From: Aeromicrobium flavum
GTDB taxonomy: Bacteria > Actinomycetota > Actinomycetes > Propionibacteriales > Nocardioidaceae
NCBI RefSeq assembly: GCF_007992115.1
Contig: NZ_BJZQ01000016.1
Location: forward strand, 1-64,000
Length of the DNA: 64,000 nucleotides
Direction: 5' to 3'
The notes under the pieces are model-generated. The model did no database searches, was not told where the DNA came from, and saw only the letters and a list, made by a program, of their open reading frames with translations. Each line of letters starts with the position of its first letter. Within the stretch, counting starts at the first letter, position 1. Position numbers and translations under genes: made by a program. Of this stretch, positions 11,056-50,781 are shown one piece after another.

Positions 11056-11129
11056 TGGAGCCGGTGACGGGAATCGAACCCGCGTATCTTGCTTGGGAAG
11101 CAAGCGCTCTGCCATTGAGCTACACCGGC
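11056..11129 (-). tRNA. tRNA-Gly (anticodon CCC)
   Basis: The 74-base gene folds into a full cloverleaf: acceptor GCCGGTG/CACCGGC, D stem GCTC/GAGC, anticodon stem CTTGC/GCAAG with loop TTCCCAA, and T arm GCGGG-TTCGAAT-CCCGT. Position 34-36 is CCC, which reads GGG. The discriminator is T and the 3' CCA is encoded. Confidence 0.97.
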
Positions 11130-14895: not shown

Positions 14896-14917
14896 CCCCG
14901 CCGCCCGTCCCGCGCGC

Positions 14918-14988
14918 GAGATGTGGAGCGCGGTCCACCCGAAATGGTCCGAATCTGGCTCCTGACGGTGGATACCGCTACACATCTC
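14918..14988. repeat. Long imperfect palindrome (about 22-bp arms)
   Basis: The stretch 14918-14939 pairs with 14967-14988 apart from a few mismatches; both arms end in GAGATGTG-type sequence when read outward in. The element fills most of the gap between the convergent TauE/SafE and LysR genes. It may end transcription, but it has no T-run and looks more like the other long palindromes in this window. Confidence 0.65.
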
Positions 14989-15011
14989 GCTGACCGGAGG
15001 TCAGTGCCGGG

Positions 15012-16296: not shown

Positions 16297-18165
16297 ATGA
16301 GCCACTACAAGAGCAATCTGCGCGACGTCGAGTTCAACCTCTTCGAGCTGTTCGACCGGCAGTCGATCCTGGGCACGGGCCCCTTCGACGAGGTTGACCT
16401 GGACACGGCGAAGAGCATCCTCTCCGAGGTCGAGCGCCTCTCGCGCGAGGACCTCGCCGCGTCCTTCGTCGACGCCGACCGCAACCCGCCGGTCTTCGAT
16501 CCCGCCACGCACACCCTGACGCAGAACCCCGCGTTCAAGGAGAGCTACCAGAAGTGGATCGACGCCGAGTGGTGGCGCCTGCAGCTGCCGACCGAGCTCG
16601 GCGGCCAGACGGCCCCCTCCTCCCTGATGTGGGCCATGGGCGAGTTCGTGCTGGGCGCCAACCCCGCCATCTGGATGTACGGCGCGGGCCCGGGCTTCAG
16701 CCGCATCGTGTGGGAGAACGGCACCGAGCGCGACAAGAAGATCGCGCAGATCATGATCGACCGCCACTGGCTGACCACCATGGTGCTGACCGAGCCCGAC
16801 GCGGGCTCGGACGTCGGCGCCGGCCGCACCAAGGCCTTCCAGAACGAGGACGGCACGTGGCGCATCGAGGGCGTCAAGCGCTTCATCACCTCGGCCGTGA
16901 GCGACCTGGGCGAGAACACGATGCACCTCGTGCTCGCGCGCCCCGTGGGCATCGAGGGCGTCGGCGGTCCGGGCACCAAGGGCCTGTCGCTGTTCCTGGT
17001 CCCCGAGCACCACTTCGACGTCGAGACCGGTGAACTGACCGGCGAGCGCAACGGCGCCTACGTCACCAACGTCGAGAAGAAGATGGGCATCAAGGCCTCG
17101 GCCACGTGCGAGGTCACCTTCGGCGACCCGCAGCTCGGCGGCCCCGCCACCGGCTGGCTGCTCGGCGAGGTGCATGACGGCATCAACCAGATGTTCCGCG
17201 TCATCGAGAACGCCCGCATGATGGTGGGTGCCAAGGCCATCGCGACGCTGTCGACCGGCTACCTCAACGCCCTCGAGTACGCCAAGGAGCGCGTGCAGGG
17301 CGCCGACATGACCAACCCGGCCAAGACCGCCCCGCGCGTCACGATCACGCACCACCCCGACGTGCGTCGCTCGCTGCTCACGCAGAAGGCGTACGCCGAG
17401 GGCCTGCGCTCGCTGATGATCTACGCGGCCACGTTCCAGGACGAGGTCATGGTCAAGCAGGCCTCGGGCGAGGACGGCAGCCTGGCGGCGTCCATCAACG
17501 ACCTGCTGCTGCCGCTGGTCAAGGGCTACGGCTCGGAGCGCTCGTGGGTCCTGCTGGGCACGGAGTCGCTGCAGACGTTCGGCGGCTCGGGCTTCCTGCA
17601 GGAGTACCCGCTCGAGCAGTACGTCCGCGACGCCAAGATCGACACCCTCTACGAGGGCACCACGGCGATCCAGGGCCAGGACCTGTTCTTCCGCAAGATC
17701 GTCAAGGACCAGGGCCGCGCCCTGGGCTGGCTGTCCGAGCAGATCAAGTCGTTCATCGACAACGAGGCGGGCAACGGCCGCCTCAAGGTCGAGCGCGACC
17801 TGCTCGCCACGGCGCTCGACGACACGACCGCCATCATCACGGCGATGTTCACCGACCTCATGGCTTCCAACCCGGCCGACGAGAACGGCGACGCGCGCAA
17901 CGTCTACAAGGTCGCGCTCAACACGACGCGGCTCGTGTACGTGCTCGGCGACCTGGTCGTGGGCTGGCTGCTGCTGCGCGGCGCCGAGGTGGCGCAGGGC
18001 CAGCTCGACGGCGGCGCCACCGGTGCCGACAAGTCGTTCTACGAGGGCAAGGTCGCCGCGGCGTCCTTCTTCGCCAAGACCGTCCTGCCCCGCCTGACCT
18101 CCGAGCGCGCGATGGCCGAGGCCGTCGACCTCGACGTGATGGAGCTGGACGAAGCGGCCTTCTGA
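16297..18165 (+). CDS. fadE5: Acyl-CoA dehydrogenase, FadE5-type
   Basis: The 622-residue product is much longer than a standard 380-residue acyl-CoA dehydrogenase. It starts [19 protein letters not shown] as in mycobacterial FadE5 (about 611 residues). The core includes [17 protein letters not shown] for FAD/substrate contact and the catalytic region [22 protein letters not shown]-terminal helical domain (residues 480-622) is typical of this large-subunit type. It oxidises acyl-CoA to trans-2-enoyl-CoA with FAD in beta-oxidation, with broad chain length in the mycobacterial homologue. GGAGG at 16282-16286 precedes the ATG. Operator palindromes upstream suggest control by fatty acid or acyl-CoA. 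Confidence 0.92.
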
Positions 18166-18178
18166 GCCACTGAGTCAG

Positions 18179-18215
18179 ACGAGCGGCGCGCACCCGATGG
18201 GTGCGCGCCGCTCGT
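18179..18215. terminator. Strong hairpin terminator after fadE5
   Basis: A perfect 17-bp stem (18179-18195 with 18199-18215) closes on a 3-base GAT loop, 14 bases after the stop. A short T-stretch follows at 18219-18221. Confidence 0.85.
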
Positions 18216-18259
18216 GCGTTTCGGGCGGTGCCTCCGCGCCCGCCCCGCCACCCTCACTT

Positions 18260-18320
18260 CACTTTTGGAACTGGATCCACGTCGGTCGGCTCGTGGAACG
18301 TGGATCCAGTTCCAAAAGTG
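18260..18320. repeat. Dispersed palindromic element, copy 1
   Basis: The arms 18260-18282 and 18298-18320 are perfect 23-bp inverted repeats starting CACTTTTGGAACTGG, with a 15-base loop. A second, slightly diverged copy lies inside the AtuA-like gene at 49375-49436. The preceding gene already has its own terminator, so this is an extra element. It is unlike an IS end and carries no ORF of its own. Confidence 0.9.
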
Positions 18321-18440
18321 GAGAGAGAGCGGGCGCCGACCGTCCTTCACAGGTGGTGCGTCATGACCGCGGACCGTACCGACCGAGGGGCTCGCACCGG
18401 CCTCGGCGAGATCGCCCTCGCGCCCCTCTAGGCTGACCGG

Positions 18441-18947
18441 GTGGAACTGACCCGACGACGCTGGTACCTCGTCGCGGCGCTGATCGCGGCGCTCGCGTGG
18501 GTCGCCGGGACCGCGTTCGCCGCGTCGGCGTGGGACCCGTTGCGCTCGGCCGAGGTCGTACCGATCGGTCAGCCGATCAAGGCCACGGGCGACGACCTCG
18601 CCGTGCTGACCGACCTGCCCCAGGCCGAGCGCGCCATCACGTGCGTCGCCCGGTCGGGCAAGAAGCGGCTCCGCGTGCCCGCCGCGACCGTCGACATCGT
18701 GGTGGACAGCGACGGCAGCCGCTGGCACCTCATCGGCGTCCTTCCGGACGCGCCCGACCAGACGAAGGTCGTCTGCAAGCCGAAGGACGACCAGACCGAC
18801 ACGGCTCGCTACGGCACCGCCCTGGTGGACCTCTCGAGCCGCGTCGGCACCGGCCAGGCGATCGCCTGGGCCGGATTCATCGCGGGACTCGGCCTGGCCG
18901 GCGCCACCCTGACCGCTCGCACCCGGAGGACATTGGCCCATGACTGA
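18441..18947 (+). CDS. Small membrane protein of unknown function
   Basis: The 168-residue product has an N-terminal membrane segment (about residues 8-29), a globular part with two Cys (ITCVAR and KVVCKP) and a second membrane segment near the C terminus (GQAIAWAGFIAGLGLAGATL). The middle domain would lie outside the membrane, where the Cys could pair. I do not recognise a family. GTG 18441 is the start. Its end overlaps the next gene by 8 bases, so the two are translationally coupled. Confidence 0.75.
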   Translation: MELTRRRWYLVAALIAALAWVAGTAFAASAWDPLRSAEVVPIGQPIKATGDDLAVLTDLPQAERAITCVARSGKKRLRVPAATVDIVVDSDGSRWHLIGVLPDAPDQTKVVCKPKDDQTDTARYGTALVDLSSRVGTGQAIAWAGFIAGLGLAGATLTARTRRTLAHD

Positions 18948-21427: not shown

Positions 21428-21506
21428 CGAGTGGCGCAAAGCGGGGTCCCGAGTGGCGCAGAATGGCCCGCCACTCGGCGAGTGGCGGGCATTTTTGCGC
21501 CACTCG
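21428..21506. repeat. Triple CGAGTGGCG repeat/palindrome between convergent genes
   Basis: CGAGTGGCG occurs at 21428, 21450 and 21479, and its complement CGCCACTCG at 21469 and 21498. Segments 21450-21477 and 21479-21506 are each hairpins and are inverted copies of one another with about four mismatches. The set sits between the SDR and MFS stops and could stop transcription both ways; ATTTTT lies in the second loop. Confidence 0.8.
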
Positions 21507-22807: not shown

Positions 22808-22875
22808 AGCGCTGAGCGTGACGTTTCGGGGGTCGGAAACGGCGTGTCGACCCCGCAAACGTCACGCCCAGCGCT
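22808..22875. repeat. Long palindrome at the end of the bkd operon
   Basis: Arms 22808-22835 and 22848-22875 are 28 bases each and complementary except for about three positions, with a 12-base spacer. The right arm ends 3 bases from the bkdC stop, so RNA from the bkd operon would fold into it at once. A terminator role is likely, but there is no T-run and the arms are unusually long. Confidence 0.8.
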
Positions 22876-47879: not shown

Positions 47880-49031
47880 TCAGTACCCCAGCAGCTTCGC
47901 GGCGAGGTCCTTCATGACCTCCGTGGCGCCGCCGCCGATGCCCAGGATGCGGGCGTCGCGGTAGTGGCGGTCGATCTCGGACTCGCGCATGTAGCCCATG
48001 CCGCCGAAGATCTGGACGGCCTCGTGCACGACGAACTCGGCGCACGCGACCGCCTGGTTCTTCGCGACGACGGCATCGAGGATCAGCGTCGGGTCGGACT
48101 TCGGGGTGTCGATCGCGCGCTCGACGACCTCGCGGGTCAGGGCGCGGGCCGCGGCGGTGCGCGAGTGCATCTCGACGAGCTTGTGGCGGATGACCTGGCG
48201 CGCGATGAGCGGCTTGCCGAACGTCTCGCGCTCCTTGGCGTACGCGGCGGCGAGGTCGAGCGCGCGCTGTGCGGTGGCGTAGGACTGCGTGGCGAGGTTG
48301 ATGCGCTCGCCGACGAACTGCTGGGCGATCAGGTAGAAGCCGCTGTTCTCCTCACCGACGACGTTCTCGACCGGGACGCGGACGTCCTCGAACGAGAGCT
48401 CGGCGGTGTCGGAGCAGTGCCAGCCCATCTTGCGCAGGCTGCGACCGACGGTGAAGCCGGGCGTGTCCTTCTCGATGACCAGCAGGCTGATGCCACCGTG
48501 GCCCTCGTCGCCGGTGCGGACGGCGGTGGTGACGAAGTCGGCGCGGACGCCGCTGGTGATGAAGGTCTTGGCGCCGTTGACGACGTAGTGGTCGCCGTCG
48601 CGCACCGCGCGGGTGCGGATGTTGGCGACGTCGGAGCCGCCGCCGGGCTCGGTGACGCCGAGGGCGCCGATCATCTCGCCCGCCAGCGTCGGGCGGACAT
48701 ACCGGTCGATCAGGTCGGCGTTGCCCGAGTCGATGATGTGCGGGGTCGCGATGGAGTGCGTGAACAGGCTGGCCTGCAGGCCCGTCGAGCCGCCGGCGGC
48801 CATCATGGCCTCGGTGGCGATGCCGGCGTCGATCATGTCGCCGCCGTCGCCGCCGACCTCCTCGGGGAAGCCGATGGCCAGGAAGCCCGCCTTCGCGGTC
48901 TTGTGGTGGAGCTCGCGCGGCAGCTCGCCGTCGTCCTCCCACTGGGCGATGTGCGGCGCGATCTCGGCACGGGTGAAGCTCTCGACGGCCGTGCGGAGCG
49001 CCTCGCGCTCGGGGGTGTTCCAGGGGTTCAT
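47880..49031 (-). CDS. fadE13: Acyl-CoA dehydrogenase, FadE13-like
   Basis: The 383-residue product has GVTEPGGGSDVANIRTRAV, NGAKTFITSGVRADFV and the catalytic C-terminal block QIFGGMGYMRESEIDRHYRD. Asp/Glu placement in the last block fits a standard short- or branched-chain dehydrogenase. It is the second FAD-dependent dehydrogenase of the operon, so the pathway has two desaturation steps or two chain lengths. ATG 49031 overlaps the AtuA-like stop (ATGA). Confidence 0.87.
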   Translation of the reverse strand: MNPWNTPEREALRTAVESFTRAEIAPHIAQWEDDGELPRELHHKTAKAGFLAIGFPEEVGGDGGDMIDAGIATEAMMAAGGSTGLQASLFTHSIATPHIIDSGNADLIDRYVRPTLAGEMIGALGVTEPGGGSDVANIRTRAVRDGDHYVVNGAKTFITSGVRADFVTTAVRTGDEGHGGISLLVIEKDTPGFTVGRSLRKMGWHCSDTAELSFEDVRVPVENVVGEENSGFYLIAQQFVGERINLATQSYATAQRALDLAAAYAKERETFGKPLIARQVIRHKLVEMHSRTAAARALTREVVERAIDTPKSDPTLILDAVVAKNQAVACAEFVVHEAVQIFGGMGYMRESEIDRHYRDARILGIGGGATEVMKDLAAKLLGY

Positions 49032-50755
49032 GCGAGCAGCTCCTCGGGGATGGTGACGATGCGGGCGCGCAGCCATTCGCCGAGCGCCTTGGCCTGCGGG
49101 TCGAAGCGCGTCGACGACGCGACTCCCTCGCCGAGCAGGCCGTGCAGGATCACGTTGATGCCGAACAGGTTCGGCAGGGGGTGGACGTCGATGTCGAGGT
49201 CGGCCGCCTCGGGCAGCAGCTCGCGGATGCGGTCCTCGGTGAGGAACCCCGCCAGCCAGGCGTAGGCGTCGGCGCGCCGGGGGTGCGTCGCGGGGATCCA
49301 CACGCCGACGTTCGCGTTGCCGCCCTTGTCTCCCGAGCGCGCGTGGACGAGCCGCCCGAGCGCCGCCTCCTTGCCACTTTTGGAACTGGATCCACGTGCA
49401 TCGGCAGGTTCCGCGTGGATCGGGTTCCAAAAGTTGTCCGCATCCGCCGTGACGGTCGGCGGAGCGATCTCCGTGCGCGAGCCGTCGGCGTGCACGACCA
49501 CGTGCGGCACCTCGGCCTGCGGCACGTACGCCGCGCGGTAGATGCCGTAGGGGGCGCCGCGGCCGGGAGGCGCGGTCATCGTGAAGCCGGGGTACGAGGC
49601 CAGCGCGGTCTCGACGGCGGCCCCGCTGAAGGTCCGGCCGACCTTGTTCATGTCGGCGTCCTTGACGTGGCAGCGCAGGATGGCCGCGGCCGCCGGCTGC
49701 GAGGTCGGGTCGACGTGGTCGGTGCGCGCGAGGTCCCAGGTGATCTCGGCCGGCGGGTTCGCGGCCAGCGCCGACTCGATCTGCGCCGTGACCCAGGCGG
49801 CCTTCTCCTCGATGTCGAGGCCGGTGACGACGAACTCGACGTGGTTGCGGAAGCCGCCGAACGCGTTGAGGCAGACCTTCGTGGTGGCCGGCGGCGCCGT
49901 GCCGCGGACGCCGGAGATGCGCACGCGGTCGTCACCGTCCTGCGCGAGCGCGAGGCTCGTCAGGTCGACCACCACGTCGGGGTTGAGGTACTTCTGGTCC
50001 TGGATCTCGTAGACGAGCTGCGCGGTGACCGTGTCGACCGTGACCGCGCCGCCGGTGCCCTCGTGCTTGGTGATGACGAGGTCGCCGTTCTCGCTGATCT
50101 CGGCGATCGGGAAGCCCAGCGGCCTGCTCATGTCGATGTCGCGGAAGCCGCTGAAGTTGCCTCCGGTCGCCTGGGCGCCGCACTCGATGACGTGTCCGGC
50201 GACGACCGCACCCGCGAGCTGGTCGAAGTCCTCACGGCCCCAGCCGAACTCGGCGATCGCGGGGCCCACGATGACGGAGGCGTCGGTGACCCGGCCGGTG
50301 ACGACGATGTCGGCGCCGGCGGTCAGCGCCTCGGCGATGCCGAACGCGCCGAGGTAGGCGTTGGCGGTGAGCGCGTCGCCGAAGCCGAGCTCGCCCGCGC
50401 GGGCCAGCAGGTCGTCGCCCTCGACGTGGGCGACGGAGACGTCGACGCCCTGCTCGGCGGCGACCTTGCGGATGGCGTCGGCCAGGCCCTGCGGGTTGAG
50501 GCCGCCGGCGTTGGCGACGATCCTGACGCCGCGCTCCTTGGCCAGGGCGAGGTTCTCGGCGACCTGCTTGAGGAAGGTCTTCGCGTACCCGAGGTCGGTG
50601 TCCTTCATCCGGTCGCGGCCGAGGATCAGCATCGTCAGCTCGGCGAGGTAGTCGCCGGTCAGGTAGTCGAGCTCGCCACCCTCGAGCATCTCGCGCATCG
50701 CGGAGAAGCGATCGCCGTAGAAACCCGAGCAGTTGCCGACACGAAGGGTACGCAC
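49028..50755 (-). CDS. AtuA-like (DUF1446) protein carrying an in-frame palindromic insertion
   Basis: From GTG 50755 the product has 575 residues. Residues 1-430 are the DUF1446/AtuA domain (RTLRVGNCSGFYGDRFSA, NAGGLNPQGLADAIRK, GRVTDASVIVGPAI, GGNFSGFRD); about 465-575 form the AtuA-like C-terminal domain (GRLVHARSGDKGGNANVGVW). AtuA is needed for acyclic terpene use in Pseudomonas, reaction unknown; M. tuberculosis Rv0976c is the positional match. The linker NFWNPIHAEPADARGSSSKS comes from a palindromic element found elsewhere in the window. I prefer GTG 50755 to GTG 50776 because a TTGACT -35 box is placed for a leaderless message starting there. Confidence 0.85.
   Translation of the reverse strand: MRTLRVGNCSGFYGDRFSAMREMLEGGELDYLTGDYLAELTMLILGRDRMKDTDLGYAKTFLKQVAENLALAKERGVRIVANAGGLNPQGLADAIRKVAAEQGVDVSVAHVEGDDLLARAGELGFGDALTANAYLGAFGIAEALTAGADIVVTGRVTDASVIVGPAIAEFGWGREDFDQLAGAVVAGHVIECGAQATGGNFSGFRDIDMSRPLGFPIAEISENGDLVITKHEGTGGAVTVDTVTAQLVYEIQDQKYLNPDVVVDLTSLALAQDGDDRVRISGVRGTAPPATTKVCLNAFGGFRNHVEFVVTGLDIEEKAAWVTAQIESALAANPPAEITWDLARTDHVDPTSQPAAAAILRCHVKDADMNKVGRTFSGAAVETALASYPGFTMTAPPGRGAPYGIYRAAYVPQAEVPHVVVHADGSRTEIAPPTVTADADNFWNPIHAEPADARGSSSKSGKEAALGRLVHARSGDKGGNANVGVWIPATHPRRADAYAWLAGFLTEDRIRELLPEAADLDIDVHPLPNLFGINVILHGLLGEGVASSTRFDPQAKALGEWLRARIVTIPEELLA
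49375..49436. repeat. Dispersed palindromic element, copy 2, inside the AtuA-like gene
   Basis: The left arm from 49375 is identical to copy 1 (18260) for over 20 bases. The right arm (about 49414-49436) matches with a two-base change and one end difference, and the 17-base loop differs. It lies in the interdomain linker of the coding sequence and keeps the frame open, encoding about 20 extra residues. Confidence 0.88.
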
Positions 50756-50781
50756 GAGACGAGTGTCCCCTGTCACAAAGA

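Follow-up and report, generated by a model that had tools for sequence, protein, structure and literature searches.

The palindrome downstream of fadE5 in Aeromicrobium flavum is, by our reading, a non-coding member of a dispersed family served by a dedicated nuclease gene, in an arrangement like that of REP sequences and RAYT. We give this reading somewhat better than even chances; binding, cutting and copying by the nuclease are inferred. The pairing of nuclease gene and palindrome was observed directly and, backed by controls, is strongly supported. The window analysed here is the whole stretch of 64,000 nucleotides in which this palindrome lies. The genome (G000) comprises 3.09 Mb in 31 contigs, and other G-numbers designate the genomes compared with it.

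The palindrome behind fadE5 and its family

The region downstream of fadE5 contains the following features:

16297 to 18165, plus strand: fadE5, 622 aa (gene name from an earlier note on this DNA)
18179 to 18215, no strand assigned: short hairpin behind fadE5, with 17-bp arms and a 3-nt loop, present in five of six class A congeners
18250 to 18260, no strand assigned: C/T-rich left flank of the class A element, based on the flank profile of the family
18261 to 18319, no strand assigned: class A element, 59-bp core, with half-site ACTTTTGGAACTGGATCCAC; the perfect arms extend one base further on each side
18320 to 18330, no strand assigned: G/A-rich right flank of the class A element, mirror of the left one, also based on the family flank profile

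The arms of the palindrome (18260-18282 and 18298-18320), separated by 15 nt, proved fully complementary over 23 bp each, as the earlier note had stated. Folding of the region 18250-18330 as single-stranded DNA gave -30.3 kcal/mol (z = -9.2), and none of 200 shuffles was as good. Ten inverted repeats with a score of at least 13 were detected in the window, whereas one shuffle in blocks of two bases yielded none. The earlier note had also regarded the short hairpin, which is separate from the palindrome and lies 45 bases before it, as the terminator of fadE5. The hairpin exists as described; its terminator role is an inference only, because no T-run follows either the hairpin or the palindrome and a terminator scan of 18000-18700 returned 0 sites. 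The palindrome does not meet the intrinsic terminator criterion of a GC-rich hairpin followed by a T-run, in support of the claim that it is not the terminator of the gene. Termination was discarded as the main reading of the palindrome in view of the missing T-run, the separate hairpin in five of six species and the match of palindrome class to gene described below. Insertion into a pre-existing hairpin was rejected as well, as the flank positions of an element pair with each other no better than with those of other elements. A search of the whole window with Rfam at gathering thresholds returned a tRNA only and no known RNA family for the palindrome; the tRNA gene is at 11059-11129 on the minus strand.

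Counting copies in the genome, as the earlier note had proposed, yielded 24 class A elements in G000, 23 places being identified by one search and C2:16865 by another. Both end octamers are exact in 22 of the 24. Of 47 occurrences of the end octamer ACTTTTGG in the genome, 46 fall inside elements; the sole outside occurrence looks by eye like rRNA spacer. The length of the element is fixed at 59 bp, in 13/13 pattern matches when the spacer was left free between 20 and 50 and in 27/27 when it was free between 20 and 60; a control pattern with a spacer of 47 instead of 45 matched in 1 of 49 genomes. The half-site consensus derived from 82 elements (164 half-sites) is C-rich, then ACTTTTGGAA(C/A)nGGATnCAC, the C-rich stretch covering about -10 to -1 of each half-site and being mirrored as a G-rich stretch on the right. 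The two arms covary, with a score of 0.191 versus 0.085 in shuffles (0/500 shuffles reach it) and 94 two-sided cells versus 43.1 +/- 5.5; the number of arm pairs with a two-sided change is only mildly high (11 versus 9.1 expected; 34/500 shuffles). Arm pairs 1-20 are well paired, and pairs 21-23 are paired only about half the time.

Eight of the 49 congeners have exact class A-type ends, as do 8 of the 341 genomes examined across the taxonomic family. The shorter ends CTTTTG-N45-CAAAAG occur in 12 of 341, every one an Aeromicrobium genome. G006 carries at most 39 copies by pattern. Ten viral contigs match the end pattern, none with a convincing arm match. Among the matches listed when named genomes were scanned for elements in other phyla (81 in 80 loci), at least 10 of 17 inner arm positions are paired in the two Aeromicrobium ones only, and a stricter scan of named genomes for the element gave no match. 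Several arm classes could be distinguished, namely A (GGAAC..), B (TGACG..), C (CCGGGTTGTGG..), C' (GCCAGTTGTGG..) and D (AAGCGTTGCG..); those other than A are not all 59 bp long, their spans being about 50-78.

The window holds other palindromes. An imperfect one at 21450-21506 has similar copies at the start of contig C3 of G000, in G006 (L153:4404-4470) and in G013 (L248), and is a member of another repeat family, which may be breaking contigs. A strong one at 22808-22875, with 28-nt arms and a 12-nt loop, has no match among the loci compared.

A nuclease gene between matching palindromes

The likely class A partner gene of G000 is located on contig C7 (54656-55612), between two class A elements, and encodes a 319-aa product that matches DUF559. 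One gene is enclosed by a pair of class A copies, spaced about 1.1 kb, in each of G000, G006, G017 and G042. Relatives of this gene were present in 46 of the 49 Aeromicrobium genomes searched and, by profile search, in 52 of 54 from other genera. We compared the 350 bp before with the 350 bp after each of 70 Aeromicrobium nuclease genes, taking the best match per genome (n=30) and 40 others, mostly the best-ranked of a longer list, with a match score threshold of at least 50 and also of at least 40. Left and right flanks matched at 50 or more in 46 of the 70 genes, versus 8/560 mismatched flanks, and at 40 or more in 60 of the 70, versus 13/560; 24 genes thus remained below 50 and 10 below 40. 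Matching flanks were obtained for 19/30 of the best-per-genome genes and for 27/40 of the added ones. In four of the 70 ORFs, the stop falls 9-24 bases short of where the aligned stretch ends.

Controls at the threshold of 50 gave no matching flanks for fadE5 (0/29) or AtuA (0/30), and for ordinary ORFs a match in 1/131, with coding homology in that case. In other genera, the flanks matched at 50 or more for 19 of 30 genes and at 40 or more for 23, with 0/240 for mismatched flanks. The matched segments were palindromic (score of at least 10) in 35/46 cases in Aeromicrobium, versus 1/46 in the control, and in only 9/19 cases in other genera, versus 1/18. The median distance from the end of the 5' copy to the gene is 102 bp, and the 3' copy lies a median of 33 bp behind the gene. 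At three loci of other genera (L365, L359 and L369), the nuclease gene is bordered by arrays of several repeats and not by single palindromes.

Different genes are enclosed by different palindromes. In G006, class A encloses one nuclease gene and class B another; class B also encloses a G044 gene, class C a G008 gene, and class D genes of G045 and G047. Sharing of the element followed protein identity, being found in 13/13 pairs at 80% identity or more, in 11/22 pairs at 70-80% and in 0/529 pairs below 40%; homology of the neighbouring genes probably accounts for some high cross-gene scores at 50-70% identity. None of 40 pairs of paralogues from the same genome had a palindrome in common. As judged from sequence comparison, the pairing is recurrent across Aeromicrobium and other genera, the palindrome differing from gene to gene.

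A palindrome of a further class lies in the window:

14916 to 14990, no strand assigned: class E palindrome between two convergent ORFs, with half-site CGAGATGTGTAGCGGTATCCACC on the minus strand

The 23 bases of this half-site are identical to one beside a G060 nuclease gene (L334), both flanks of which match. The match between the class E palindrome and the C6 nuclease gene of G000 was not above threshold.

The AF2 model of the 319-aa protein (pLDDT 93.5, pTM 0.89) predicts an AbiEi-like DNA-binding fold (residues 1-181) joined to a fold resembling Vsr and the EDxHD homing endonucleases (186-290). The modelled C-terminal part aligned with the catalytic domain of I-Bth0305I (3r3p) with a Z score of 9.7 over 96 residues at 2.6 A, and the model further matched NGO0050 (Z 8.8), Vsr (1vsr, Z 7.5) and Rv2827c (Z 6.8). 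The N-terminal part aligned with AbiEi (6y8q) over 173 residues with a Z score of 8.4, but at an rmsd of 6.1 A. Foldseek alone found nothing in the PDB at E <=0.001; mitoribosomal proteins headed its list, and I-Bth0305I ranked fourth. Profile matches of the protein in the PDB were 3hrl (E 0.0006) and 3r3p (E 0.0012). Among 40 relatives, Pfam identified the MTES_1575 nuclease in 37 and DUF559 in 36, and PADLOC AbiEi models matched 39; Y1 (Pfam01797, the Y1/HUH transposase family) was not among the five Pfam families that these relatives matched. Seven residues are invariant in all 40 (E189, R193, D222, E233, G236, H239 and R252), four of them of catalytic type (E189, D222, E233 and H239).

The protein thus has the predicted 186-290 fold and the conserved acidic and histidine residues in common with EDxHD homing endonucleases (I-Bth0305I) and Vsr. 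Unlike these, its nuclease is joined to an AbiEi-like part and its gene has palindromes on both sides; there is no intron, and homing has not been shown. With the type IV antitoxins AbiEi and Rv2827c it shares the predicted 1-181 fold; paired repeats of 59 bp in total are the published binding target of Rv2827c (PMC7319586). It differs from them in that its C-terminal part is a nuclease and that the repeats also occur behind the gene and genome-wide.

Positions, history and loss of the dispersed copies

The positions of 49 class A copies from G000 and G006 were compared with ORFs called by a crude, simple GC-based caller. Between ORF calls lay 37 copies, of which 18 were convergent, 18 tandem and 1 divergent, and 12 lay inside ORF calls; 42 of the 54 stop codons adjoining copies are within 50 bp. 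The expectation from REP/RAYT that dispersed palindromes lie mostly outside genes is met.

The comparison of close relatives that the earlier note had suggested covered 30 fadE5 loci, from 48 congeners with a match, 29 of which were readable downstream (L287 was left out for its short flank). The class A element follows fadE5 in six of the 29 (G000, G060, G044, G017, G042 and G006) and is absent from the other 23; the short hairpin accompanies it in all of the six species except G060. The earlier note would have been refuted if the palindrome always stood behind fadE5 in relatives and had no other copy in the genome, which is not the case. The copy behind fadE5 is common to a six-species clade by descent, and therefore is not a recent insertion. 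Behind fadE5 in G062 and G048 (L282 and L275), other long-loop palindromes of 63 and 74 bp are found where congeners have the short hairpin only.

By our reading of the matches listed, at least 17 of the 24 G000 copies have an orthologous copy in another species, so that movement can be rare at most. At some class A sites, a copy is present in one close species and absent from another. No target-site duplication was clearly seen at four such presence/absence loci, where the empty sites are old or deleted, and two losses of the element resemble ordinary deletions.

A second class A element of the window is located within a gene:

49028 to 50776, minus strand: AtuA-family ORF, 582 aa; the AtuA domain spans 11-427 and the AtuA ferredoxin-like domain 473-571, and the linker between them includes the translated element
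49376 to 49434, no strand assigned: second class A element, within the AtuA-family gene and in frame, where the linker between the two domains is encoded

This element has the same ends and the same length as that behind fadE5. The earlier note had described the fadE5 copy as the better preserved of the two, and the arm positions paired in the 59-bp core bear this out (22/23 versus 20/23). The AtuA linker was compared across 30 loci, 10 of which were left out as the motif was not found. Class A is in frame in G000, G042 and G017, with a decayed copy in G060; class B occupies the linker in G006 and G044, other palindromes (by eye) in G039 and G061, and none in G041. The presence of different palindromes in different species (for instance at L243, at L255 and at 49376-49434 of the window) suggests that the linker is a tolerant hot spot. 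Palindromic elements of Rickettsia can also sit in frame within genes; they resemble the present ones in this respect and differ in size, sequence and host.

Dependence of the elements on the cognate gene was assessed in samples of 400 kb each from G006, G060 and G044, at sites orthologous to elements of other genomes. The G006 sample was picked where elements of G006 are dense, the sites being defined by other genomes. No class A gene was present among the relatives found by search in G060 and G044. G006, which has the gene, showed intact class A at 6 of its 7 orthologous sites; the corresponding figures were 1 of 7 for G060 and 1 of 8 for G044. Several other orthologous sites had copies with 1-3 changes in the end octamers. 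A stricter subset, limited to elements present in at least two gene-bearing genomes and excluding the AtuA site, gave 4/4 versus 2/8 (P = 0.06). Class A queries found 10 places in the G006 sample, 2-3 in that of G044 and 1-3 in that of G060, and class B queries 2-3, 5 and 0, respectively. Class E and one more class had 2 and 4 places in G060 and none in the G006 and G044 samples, and 15 queries of other classes had 2 places in 45 query-by-sample tests. G044 retains five exact class A copies without a class A gene. Dispersed copies mostly accompany the cognate gene in these three samples.

Possible mechanism and other readings

The target of Rv2827c consists of paired 23-bp inverted repeats separated by 13 bp, 59 bp in total, and AbiEi, like Rv2827c, represses its own promoter by binding inverted repeats there (PMC7319586). 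Because the length of the element (23+13+23) equals that of the repeats bound by Rv2827c, we infer that the AbiEi-like N-terminal part binds the half-sites. This agreement is suggestive only, since pairs 21-23 are paired only about half the time and the other classes differ in span. We offer a mechanism as a proposal, with no data on binding, cleavage or movement. The N-terminal part would recognise two inverted half-sites of its own class and position the nuclease at the element, and the nuclease would nick or cut the DNA there or nearby. Repair or copying of the cut DNA may then, rarely, place a copy elsewhere and would keep existing copies alike. Copies would survive mainly just behind stop codons, where they may do little harm, and would be lost by mutation or deletion once the cognate gene is gone.

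The elements could instead be binding sites only, the AbiEi-like part being an autoregulator with the upstream palindrome as its operator, the dispersed ones a regulon or decoys, and the nuclease acting elsewhere. Repression by AbiEi and Rv2827c of their own promoters through inverted repeats (PMC7319586) and the position of the 5' copy, with a median distance of 102 bp from its end to the gene, speak for this account. It has to contend with another copy behind the gene, at a median of 33 bp, with solo copies that avoid promoter positions (a single divergent one among the 37 inter-ORF class A copies of G000 and G006), and with copies inside the AtuA reading frame, which a regulon leaves unexplained; we consider it unlikely, without setting it aside. 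That the palindromes are RNA 3' hairpins, either bidirectional terminators or mRNA stabilisers evolving in place, appears improbable. Most adjoining stop codons are close (42/54 within 50 bp), the arms covary above shuffles (94 versus 43.1 +/- 5.5 two-sided cells) and no hairpin other than the element was found behind fadE5 in G060; but there is no T-run, a separate short hairpin stands alongside in five of six species, the length is fixed, two copies border the nuclease gene, and the arm classes track the gene type.

An ordinary MITE or REP family mobilised by a transposase of the DDE or Y1 type, on which the nuclease genes would merely ride along or of which they would make use, would likewise yield palindromic, dispersed, non-coding elements occasionally inserted in frame. 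The gene bordered by the elements and matched to them in class is nevertheless the AbiEi-nuclease, and no Y1 is among the five Pfam families of its 40 relatives (a search confined to those relatives and not genome-wide), so that we regard this origin as quite improbable. Very improbable, in our view, is a defence or addiction system in which the nuclease is harmful and the palindromes titrate it or protect from it, so that a gene-bearing genome must keep them. AbiEi belongs to the setting of toxin-antitoxin systems and phage defence, the N-terminal part is matched by PADLOC models, and copies are lost at many sites in genomes without the gene; yet a single flanking pair ought to suffice for protection.

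The preferred reading, a palindrome family served by its own nuclease, has its closest likeness in REP/REPIN sequences and RAYT (TnpA-REP). There too, the gene lies between two copies of its own palindrome with dispersed non-coding copies elsewhere, and gene and palindrome change together, palindromy being kept while the sequence changes (PMC2817692, PMC3116915). The enzymes differ, RAYT being a Y1/HUH tyrosine transposase (Pfam01797) and the Aeromicrobium partner an AbiEi-like/Vsr-like nuclease. REP copies usually number more than 100 per genome, against 24 of class A in G000 and at most 39 in G006, and the class A element, unlike REP, ends in ACTTTTG(G). We found no description of the gene-palindrome pairing in the literature searched, which was covered only in part for some queries, and no function in print there for DUF559/AbiEi-type genes.

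It is possible, although we put it at rather less than even, that the AbiEi-type part and EDxHD nuclease form a new mobile or gene-drive-like class, widespread in the order, that spreads and maintains its own palindrome without Y1/HUH or DDE enzymes, each paralogue having a private one. If the pairing holds, DUF559/AbiEi-type genes would gain a predicted substrate and their own predicted binding site on both sides. Since class A and class B define cognate and non-cognate pairs, this prediction can be put directly to the test. If the elements do move, dispersed palindromes would have been solved independently by two enzymes, RAYT and this nuclease.
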